Source: Saprospiraceae bacterium
GTDB lineage: Bacteria > Bacteroidota > Bacteroidia > Chitinophagales > Saprospiraceae
NCBI GenBank assembly: GCA_024762995.1
Contig: JANTGI010000006.1
Coordinates: 1 to 57,223, forward strand
Length of the DNA stretch: 57,223 bases
Direction of reading: 5' to 3'
How positions within the stretch are numbered: position 1 is the first letter of the stretch; every line of letters starts with the position of its first letter. The position numbers were made by a program, and so were the translations under genes. The notes beneath the pieces are model-generated. The model did not search any database. It was not told where the DNA came from and saw only the letters and a program-made list of their open reading frames with translations. This document shows, in pieces, positions 12,240 to 15,247 of the stretch.

Positions 12240-13481
12240 ATGAAAAACGTTATTGCTCTTTTGGGGCTTTTAGCCCTTTCCGTTGGGTTATGGGGACAAC
12301 AAACCGTTTACCCTCTACTCTCCATGGAGAAAATTTCTGCTTCGATAAAGAAAAATGCAGCCATAGAAAAATGGCAGCCTAGAGATTTGTTACAGGAGAT
12401 TTACTGTATTGATGAAGATGAAATGACCGACGAGTCGAATATGGGTCTTCAACCTACGTCAAAGACACACTATTCGCTTGACGAAACGAACGGTTACTAC
12501 ACAATGACCATTGAAAAAAAACAATATAATGATTCGACAGGAATCTATGAACCTTTTCTTAAGGGTTATGTCTATATGAGCAGTGCGAACGCTATTGATC
12601 AAATCAGCTTTTATAGTCTGGCAGATTCAACCATAACTATGGCTTGGGATGAATCAATAAATGATTTTAGTATTATTTTTAAAGGGTACAATGAATTTGA
12701 CGGTAGCGGAAAATTGCTTTCTGCGACAACCTATCTCGGTAGTGGACTTTTGTTTTCAAAATCTTTATTTTATTATACTAACGGTGGCTTTTTGATTGCC
12801 GAAACCAACTATGGTTTCGACTTTTTCTCCGGTGGTTTTGTCGTCGAAGATTCTACTGTTTATGAAAACAACGTGGCGGGGGACATTTTAAGCAGTACCA
12901 CCTATCTTTGGGATAGCAACACACACTTGTTTTTCGCAGACAAAAAAGCTACTTATTATTATTCAAATCAAACTCTTGATAGCATTGTCACTTTTACCTA
13001 TGAAGGAATGAACCTTACCCCTTGGCAAAAGGAAGTATATGAGTTTGACTCCCAAGACAGAGTGACCTATCTCCTTACGCAAAACATCTTAGCAGGAGAA
13101 TGGCAAGACAATTCCATCGACTCTTTTTATTTTGATGGGCTCAACTACAATTTCCCTTCACGCGAAGTCCACCTAGTTTCTGATTCAGGAAATTGGAGAC
13201 CCGAATCAGTTATAACGAGAAATACCTGTACAATGGTAGGCATGACATCCGCCAAACTATTGCCTTTTACTGCTCGTTTAGATGGCAACGATCTTATTTT
13301 AACTAATATTGAAGGCAGTGGCTTGGTCCGCATCGTAGATGTTAGTGGGAATGTACTCTTTGCCAAGCAATATGACGTAATCCCGAATAGGATTTTTGTT
13401 GGCTCCATCCAAACCGGAGTATATTTTGTAAACATCGAGAAAGGACAAGAGAGTAGTGTCCAAAAACTATTTGCCTTCTAA
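12240..13481 (+). CDS. secreted T9SS-targeted protein of unknown function
   Basis: A 413-residue protein with a signal peptide (MKNVIALLGLLALSVGLWGQ). Its long middle part is rich in Tyr, Asp and Thr with repeating YDSTGIYEPF-, YENNVAGDIL- and YEFDSQDRVTY-like strands, reminiscent of the beta-rich repeat bodies of T9SS cargo. A C-terminal sorting-type domain (about 335-413) has RIVDVSGNVLF and GVYFVNIEKG. I recognise no catalytic motif. It follows the large lectin-like protein but with its own upstream region, so joint export rather than an operon is suggested. Confidence 0.7.
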   Translation: MKNVIALLGLLALSVGLWGQQTVYPLLSMEKISASIKKNAAIEKWQPRDLLQEIYCIDEDEMTDESNMGLQPTSKTHYSLDETNGYYTMTIEKKQYNDSTGIYEPFLKGYVYMSSANAIDQISFYSLADSTITMAWDESINDFSIIFKGYNEFDGSGKLLSATTYLGSGLLFSKSLFYYTNGGFLIAETNYGFDFFSGGFVVEDSTVYENNVAGDILSSTTYLWDSNTHLFFADKKATYYYSNQTLDSIVTFTYEGMNLTPWQKEVYEFDSQDRVTYLLTQNILAGEWQDNSIDSFYFDGLNYNFPSREVHLVSDSGNWRPESVITRNTCTMVGMTSAKLLPFTARLDGNDLILTNIEGSGLVRIVDVSGNVLFAKQYDVIPNRIFVGSIQTGVYFVNIEKGQESSVQKLFAF

Positions 13482-13489
13482 GGTTCCGC

Positions 13490-13652
13490 TAAGGGACACA
13501 ATCAGAATAAATGTCCATACTTAGACGAGATTATTTTGGGATTAGACAAGGCGGGAAGAGCGATGGTAGCAGGGCTACCAGAGTGATGAGCAACGCAGTA
13601 TAGTCACAAAAGAAGCCGTATAAAATGGACATTTATTTTGGGCGTGTCCCTA
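13490..13652. mobile_element. 163-bp near-symmetric palindromic element
   Basis: The outer arms read TAAGGGACAC (13490-13499) and AATAAATGTCCAT (13506-13518) on the left, with inverted matches at 13625-13637 and 13644-13652 on the right. The exact centre (about 13572) is a perfect hairpin GGTAGC-AGG-GCTACC (13565-13579). The intervening arms also pair imperfectly (GACGAGATTATTTTGGGATTAGA side against TATAGTCACAAAAGAAGCCGTAT side). The whole element can therefore fold as one long hairpin. It starts 9 bases after the stop of the T9SS gene. It may be a MITE or a structured RNA. Confidence 0.6.
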
Positions 13653-13693
13653 AGTTCATTTGTTTGGCACAAAACTCTCGTCACTAGTTGAAG

Positions 13694-13736
13694 AAAAAAA
13701 GAGAAGATTACCCAATCGGTATTCTTCTCTTTTTTT
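13694..13736 (+). terminator. rho-independent terminator
   Basis: A 14-bp stem (AAAAAAAGAGAAGA and TCTTCTCTTTTTTT) encloses a 15-base loop, ending in a T-run. It is probably the transcript end of the T9SS gene at 12240-13481, and is symmetric enough to act on both strands. Confidence 0.75.
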
Positions 13737-13767
13737 GTAATTATTTTGGTATCCGCCGGTTTTCACC

Positions 13768-14066
13768 CGACATTTCCCATAGATTTTGCCAAACTAAACA
13801 TTTGCCAAAATATTGATAATCAATCAGTTATCCAGTTTGTCCGTTGCCCAAATTTTGGGAACTAGGCCAGCAAAATATTCTTTTTATCCGCAAGTCCCAT
13901 TTTAAGGGGACCTGCCTGACATGGCCAAAGCGGAGCTGTAGGCAGGCAGGTATTTGGGGTTAAAACCGAAGAATCAAAAAGGATATTTTGCGTCAAATTT
14001 AGTTCTACCATGATTTTTGTCTAGTTTTAAATGTTTTTTCAATCAATAAAGTGTGGGAAATGTCGG
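13768..14066. mobile_element. 299-bp MITE-like insertion with 13-bp TIRs and 7-bp target duplication
   Basis: The ends are the perfect 13-bp inverted repeat CCGACATTTCCCA (13768-13780) and its complement (14054-14066). The bases just outside are the same on both sides, TTTTCAC at 13761-13767 and 14067-14073, as expected for a target-site duplication. The interior has no ORF; it carries TTGATAATCAATCAGTTAT (13813-13831, shared with the element at 387-671) and an 8-bp CCTGCCTG/CAGGCAGG hairpin (13911-13950). This is strong structural evidence for a non-autonomous transposon. Confidence 0.75.
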
Positions 14067-14174
14067 TTTTCACCAAAAAAGTGCGACCAAATATCGCCAA
14101 AAGATAAAAACCCAATATCCCCCGGATTTAGCCAAGAATTTAGGAAATCTAAGTAACAAAACCCTAGATTTCCC

Positions 14175-14200: not shown

Positions 14201-15247
14201 ATGGATAAAAACCAATTAATTCTTGTGACCGGTGGCACCGGATTACTAGGCAGTTACCTTTTGCGAAAGCTGATACTGGATGGCTATACAAATATTCGGG
14301 CCTTGAAACGCCCCACCAGCAGATTCGATTTAGTAGCGGATATCCACCCATCTATCGAATGGGTGGACTGCGATGTGTTGGATGTCATCGGACTCGAAGA
14401 AGCCATGAAGGGAGTTGCGCAGGTCTATCATTGTGCCGCCATCGTCTCATTCCATGCTCGTGGAAAAAGAAAAATGAAACAGGTCAATGTGGAGGGCACT
14501 GCCAATGTTGTCAATACCGCTTTGATTGAAGATGTTGCTAAGTTTGTGCATGTGTCCTCCATTGCGGCAATAGGCAGAAACGAAAAGCATCCCATCGTCA
14601 CAGAAAATTTAAAATGGGACAACAGCAGTCCCTTTAATACCGCTTACGCAAAAACCAAATATCTCGCAGAAAAGGAAGTTTGGCGGGGCATTGCCGAAGG
14701 ACTTGATGCCGTCATCATCAACCCGTCTATTATTTTGGGTAGTGGCTATTGGCAATCCGGCTCCACACAAATATTCCACGAAATATGGAAAGGCCTAAAG
14801 TTTTTTCCGATAGGAAAGACCGGCTTTGTGGATGTCAGGGACGTCGTCCAATTGATGATTCAGATGATGGAAAGTAATATTGTCGGTGAGCGATTTATTG
14901 CCAATGGAGCCAACTTAGCCTTTAAAGATTTTTTTGATAAGATCGCTCATACCATTCAAAAACCCGGTCCTAGCATCCCCGTATCTGAGACCATCCGAGC
15001 CATTGCTTGGCGTCTGGAATGGATAAAATCTAAAATCACCGGAAAATCACCCATGATAACCAAGGAAACGGCCATGATTTCCGCCCAGTCCTTTGCCTTT
15101 GACAATTCAAAATCCAAGACCACCTTCGGGTTTCAATATCGCCCTATTGAGTCCACCATCCATGCCATTGGTACTCAACTAAAAGAAGCTGCTCAACATC
15201 AATTTACACCACTCACCCTAGGATTTGATAATAAAGTAGTCAAATAA
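14201..15247 (+). CDS. NAD(P)-dependent extended short-chain dehydrogenase / epimerase
   Basis: A 348-residue extended SDR. The Rossmann motif TGGTGLLGSYL is at residues 10-20, HCAAIVSF follows the fourth strand, HVSSIAAIG supplies the catalytic Ser, and YAKTKYLAE supplies the YxxxK pair. The C-terminal half (INPSIILGSGYW, GFVDVRDVV) is that of NAD-dependent epimerase/dehydratase-like or dihydroflavonol-reductase-like enzymes. The substrate is not readable. It stands before pepA with its own promoter; pepA also has one. Confidence 0.85.
   Translation: MDKNQLILVTGGTGLLGSYLLRKLILDGYTNIRALKRPTSRFDLVADIHPSIEWVDCDVLDVIGLEEAMKGVAQVYHCAAIVSFHARGKRKMKQVNVEGTANVVNTALIEDVAKFVHVSSIAAIGRNEKHPIVTENLKWDNSSPFNTAYAKTKYLAEKEVWRGIAEGLDAVIINPSIILGSGYWQSGSTQIFHEIWKGLKFFPIGKTGFVDVRDVVQLMIQMMESNIVGERFIANGANLAFKDFFDKIAHTIQKPGPSIPVSETIRAIAWRLEWIKSKITGKSPMITKETAMISAQSFAFDNSKSKTTFGFQYRPIESTIHAIGTQLKEAAQHQFTPLTLGFDNKVVK

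Follow-up and report, generated by a model that had tools for sequence, protein, structure and literature searches.

Introduction

In Porphyromonas gingivalis, the bacterial MITE BrickBuilt carries a minisatellite and is a precedent in Bacteroidota for a repeat inside a MITE (PMC4596501). MITECca01 of Cardinium, also lineage-specific, exists in many copies, and its parent, of the IS982 family, is named (PMC9769881). REP elements within palindromes were described in 2013 (PMC3733652), and a table of insertion sequence (IS) families gives IS1634 the ends C-----YT and direct repeats of 5–6 bp (PMC2266710). No publication on MITEs of Saprospiraceae was found in the one open literature collection covered.

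The DNA analysed here (the window) is a stretch of 57,223 nucleotides, contig C6 of the Saprospiraceae genome G000 (3.68 Mb, 241 contigs; GCA_024762995.1). As far as the published descriptions go, its MITE resembles BrickBuilt and MITECca01 in being short, non-coding, intergenic and lineage-specific, with inverted ends (PMC4596501, PMC9769881), and resembles BrickBuilt in having another repeat inside (PMC4596501). In contrast to the two as described there, its ends and sequence differ and its inner parts are mobile palindromes. Unlike MITECca01 as reported, it has few copies, and a search for its parent found none (PMC9769881). It is a new genus-restricted MITE family of a known kind, composed of nested mobile palindromes and unusual in its degree of nesting. 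With it, a little-studied group gains a MITE family and a clear example of a MITE that contains two further dispersed repeats; for at least one of these, the route of insertion is a different one that does not duplicate the target.

The MITE and its target duplication

The element comprises 300 bp (13767–14066) in an intergenic region, between an ORF (413 aa) ending at 13481 and an ORF (348 aa) starting at 14201, whose translation reads as a putative NAD-dependent epimerase. It is bounded by the terminal inverted repeat CCGACATTTCCCA, at 13767–13779 on the plus strand and 14054–14066 on the minus strand. The two are exact reverse complements (13/13 bp), and TTTTCAC lies flush at both (13760–13766 and 14067–14073). 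The aligned ends further define a subterminal box, AACATTT, at 13797–13803 (plus strand) and 14029–14035 (minus strand). The original prediction was right about the perfect 13-bp repeats, the abutting 7-bp duplication and the lack of an ORF (none of ≥50 aa inside the 300 bp). Its right-hand coordinates, 14066 and 14073, are correct, whereas 13761 and 13768 on the left are one base too high.

The longest direct repeat across the element is 11 bp (CGGTTTTCACC, at 13757–13767 and 14064–14074). It exceeds 7 bp because CGG, the last three letters of the right inverted repeat, also stands in the left flank. If the element ends are CCG..CGG, as the copies in relatives indicate, the duplication would be 7 bp. 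The window contains five 13-bp inverted-repeat pairs within 1 kb, and a flush 7-bp direct repeat accompanies one of the five. This arrangement occurs at a single place in the window and in none of 200 dinucleotide-preserving shuffles.

Copies of the outer element

When the 300-bp sequence was compared with its own genome, 18 matches were obtained. Besides the element itself, one of them, a right end of 71 bp on C179 with 90% identity, could be clearly assigned to the outer element. A perfect 13-mer without a second end (C92:12352–12364) may be a solo end. Another candidate, a one-mismatch end match on C33, was set aside because it looks like coding sequence and is probably due to chance. The copy number in the own genome is therefore low, at one complete copy, the 71-bp end and one doubtful solo end.

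Matches to the element were found in three of five genomes of the genus. In G002 (Saprospiraceae MAG JALVCY01, same genus), C600 and C256 each carry a left and a right end, and C258 and C291 have one end each; G004 had a single end at C316. The complete C600 element is 267 bp long with ATAATA on both sides, and the complete C256 element is 859 bp long with CGTTAT/CATTAT (5 of 6 positions). A third complete element, of 430 bp with TCAAAA on both sides (C66, 4343–4772), was found via a model of the aligned ends; its own ends are more divergent (CCGATATTTCTCA and CCGACATTCCCGA). These three elements lie in unrelated flanks. Together with the window copy, there are four complete elements in two species, with direct repeats of 7, 6, 6 and 5-of-6 bp (the length is not constant), in addition to four or five solitary ends. 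Nine aligned ends have CCGACATTYCCCA in common and, around position 31, an invariant AACATT box. C600 and C256 are 95–97% identical over their shared parts and differ in their flanks. The family has therefore moved within G002 in the fairly recent past.

The MITE reading was thus borne out by near-identical ends that bound three more complete elements at unrelated sites with direct repeats. It would have been weakened had the ends not been found elsewhere, and they are present in a same-genus genome. Among the features by which MITEs are recognized, short length (< ~600 bp), absence of coding sequence, terminal inverted repeats and target duplication were found for the window element, and dispersed copies for its family.

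Very probably, then, the locus is a non-autonomous DNA transposon (MITE) that was moved in trans, most likely by a DDE transposase, into an intergenic TTTTCAC, and its interior consists of other mobile palindromes stacked within it. We infer the DDE type from the bipartite inverted ends and the short duplications. Such an enzyme, supplied in trans, would recognize CCGACATTYCCCA together with AACATTT ~30 bp further in, and its insertion between two genes would duplicate 6–7 bp of target, here TTTTCAC.

The same copies bear on two other explanations. The outer element could have moved as single-stranded hairpin DNA, by a Y1/HUH or attC-like route, rather than via a DDE enzyme. The element is indeed a long fold-back, and Y1 transposases are encoded in G000. 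However, all four complete copies have flush direct repeats of 5–7 bp, and to our knowledge Y1 elements do not duplicate their target, which makes this route highly unlikely. It is extremely improbable that the whole 300 bp is a host structured RNA or regulatory stem-loop, with the ends forming the base of the stem and the flanking repeat a coincidence. The folding of the 300-nt strand would fit this explanation, as it beats 200 of 200 shuffles (z = -4.6) and has a basal stem of 15 pairs. The inner arms of related G002 repeats, which keep their complementarity despite changes on both sides (see below), would fit it as well. Against it, the same ends are found on elements that range from 267 to 859 bp and lie at unrelated sites, where each has a direct repeat of its own. 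In addition, the window element has no match to an Rfam family, and its position beside the same gene is not conserved among same-genus genomes. For annotation, the MITE interpretation carries a warning: intergenic fold-backs like these are composites and not one RNA or one element.

Search for an empty site and for a parent

The downstream epimerase gene is kept in all four same-genus genomes. The DNA upstream of this gene is unrelated in the four, with nothing upstream of ~14169 aligning in any, and for this reason no empty site is readable in them. The original prediction had called the insertion probably recent. The insertion stands; it may be recent, but no empty site is readable, and the nearest other copy in the own genome is only the 71-bp right end at 90%.

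A MITE usually, but not necessarily, has ends that match those of a transposase-bearing parent. Searches of the own genome, of its genus and of 199 family genomes with end patterns of 13 and 15 bp detected no such parent, nor did a 48-position end model among 398 family genomes. The searched genomes are drafts, and the parent may therefore be absent from the data. Across genome contigs, the ends with AACATTT were found in four stretches, all in MAG JALVCY01 and none within a transposase-bearing element, and plasmid and phage collections contained no match. A scan of viral contigs returned 40 stretches with single ends. Only one of these 40 loci (L077) had a facing end pair with ≤2 mismatches, 9 kb apart, and the viral ends were rejected as family members in favor of chance or phage genes. 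These searches agree with the original prediction, which had found the parent transposase family not to be evident.

IS1634-like parentage is a weak lead suggested by the ends. The window ends, CCGACATT, match the three conserved positions in the tabulated IS1634 ends, and duplications of 6–7 bp are close to the tabulated range (PMC2266710). On the other hand, the 7-bp duplication is outside the 5–6 bp given in that table (PMC2266710), and a three-position fit is expected by chance in about 1/32 of cases.

The inner stem-loop repeat

A stem-loop repeat at 13869–13995 on the plus strand (element positions 103–229) takes up the middle of the MITE. It stands alone, with 91% identity, at G000:C127:3620–3749. 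Its arms in the window (13870–13885 and 13976–13991) are GCAAAATATTC and GGATATTTTGC, with one mismatch of the G-T type, and at C127 the arms form a perfect pair. Inside this repeat lies a 40-bp CCTGCC..GGCAGG hairpin, which is REP-like (13911–13950, plus strand). The original prediction had reported this hairpin, CCTGCCTG, as the MITE's own part. The hairpin is present, but it is a separate repeat inside another repeat. According to the order of insertions that we infer, the stem-loop repeat would have come to occupy the middle of the MITE, and the 40-bp hairpin would have entered the stem-loop repeat without target duplication, in the manner of REP-like elements moved by Y1 (HUH) transposases.

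G000 also contains a second repeat of greater length, with ends near CTTTGTACAGGACAAAA and direct repeats of its own, among them CAATTAAC (C23) and AATTAACAG (C137). Its core is that of the inner unit, but its arms differ (AAACCAAGTA/TACTTGGTTT). The core palindrome was also found inside all four complete MITE copies. C256 corresponds to C600 with an additional ~590 bp. This additional DNA is another element, bounded by inverted ends of its own and inserted within the core, where a 10-bp direct repeat that is almost a palindrome, CCTTAGAAGG, flanks it. The joint recurs in C258, and the composite may therefore have been mobile as a whole. In C66, the interior includes a member of another repeat family, with ends GGCTCCGAAAAGT..ACTTTTCGGAG and the core inside. 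At C256 (L312, 3296–4154), the element inserted in the MITE core holds two more palindromic stem-loops.

The middle repeats could instead be the leftovers of one decayed, internally deleted IS rather than later insertions. Internal deletion of an IS is a common origin of MITEs, and the window and G002 copies share subterminal sequence (~74 bp on the left, 41 bp on the right), as such an ancestry would predict. We consider it unlikely, as the middle unit is found alone at C127, the hairpin is seen in unrelated contexts, the middle of C66 and that of C256 contain different repeats, bounded by ends of their own, and no ORF of ≥50 aa remains.

A core palindrome shared by several repeat families

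At least four repeat families, with different ends and different self-complementary arms, have one and the same palindromic core, about TTTTTnGCCATAAGTCCCC..GGGGATATTTGGGGTTA, at their apex. A core model (E up to 0.01) matched 24 times in G000, 108 times in G002 and 16 times in G004, counts that include some halves and some both-strand matches of one place. Forty of the 108 G002 matches were read and divided into 14 copies of arm type X and 26 of arm type Y. Two Y copies cut by contig ends (L250 and L266) were left out of the alignment. In the remaining 24, the inner arms pair in 99.6% of cells and three pairs have changed on both sides, although this pairing reflects few independent events because the copies are related. 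When the pairing was shifted, whole-structure pairing of the Y copies fell from 91% to 37–54%. The inner arms that change together are ATTCTG/CAGAAT, ATTTGG/CCAAAT and GTTTTG/CAAAAC. Y copies in G002 (within L237–L266) also have their own inverted ends, CTCCGAAAAGT..ACTTTTCGGAG.

The core may be explained either by insertion into loops or by exchange of MITE ends around it. It is unlikely that a dedicated process places hairpin modules in the loops of existing hairpins, or swaps MITE ends around a conserved apex, to yield nested palindromes whose arms stay complementary via correction or selection. Counting against it, two of the 14 X-type copies (L234 and L244) have no matching left arm, and several core copies in the own genome are only halves. 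The occurrence of the same palindromic core in elements with unrelated ends raises the question of whether hairpin loops are favored landing sites in bacteria.

The CCTGCC hairpin and Y1 transposases

The CCTGCC hairpin pattern gave 109 matches, often on both strands of one place, compared with two control matches. The hairpin at 13911–13950 has the properties expected of a REP: it is a palindrome of 40 bp (REPs, 20–40 bp), it has many copies, and its insertion is without target duplication. Copies of the second repeat without the hairpin (C49, C31 and C13) read GGGGGA|TATTTGGGGG. In C23, C96, C110, C11 and the window element, the hairpin is present at the GGGGGA|TATTTGGGG joint with nothing duplicated (C110 has one base different at the joint). 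The same mode of insertion is seen for a 25-bp hairpin of this kind at AAG|TCCCC in C23 and C137. The site in the second repeat is a fixed joint, so a single insertion, multiplied later as the host repeat was copied, may account for the copies with the 40-bp hairpin.

We rejected the idea that the hairpin always chooses palindrome loops, as 8-bp complementary flanks were found only at C127:4219, C28 and C87 among the 54 matches listed, where nested matches of one hairpin are counted separately. The remaining listed hairpin matches lie in other contexts, among them CTCCTAAAC-like tracts. At G000:C127:4218, G000:C28:17798 and on G000:C87 (L187), three solitary CCTGCC hairpins each occupy the loop of a palindrome of the CTTGCAAA..TTTGCAAG type.

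Clean joints are a mark of Y1-type insertion, and those of the hairpin suggest that a Y1/HUH enzyme was its mover. G000 encodes two Y1 transposases, one IS200-type and one RAYT-like, the latter (L098, G000:C88:105–602) scoring 76.3 bits, below the curated cut-off of 80. No CCTGCC hairpin was found in the 820 bases around the RAYT-like gene, and the linkage between REP and RAYT is therefore lacking at this gene. The gene adjoins short CGAACnTTGGGG tandem repeats. Compared with REPs as far as their 2013 description goes, the hairpin is similar in being a small palindrome inside a longer palindrome and in its Y1/RAYT association, but the single RAYT-like gene found in G000 is not flanked by these hairpins (PMC3733652).

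Neighboring repeats upstream of the MITE

An unrelated second repeat of the window lies at 13490–13653. It is 158 bp long, from GGGACAC to GTGTCCC (13493–13650), with TAA on both sides. At least 40 copies with 85–98% identity are present in the genome, and the same 3 bp, in most cases TAA or TTA, flank both ends at 21 of the 27 fetched two-ended loci. These features suggest a much more successful and more recent MITE, perhaps with an IS5-type parent. Between the two elements, at 13694–13736, a near-perfect 19-bp inverted repeat with A/T-rich ends encloses a 5-bp loop and may serve the upstream gene as a two-way terminator.
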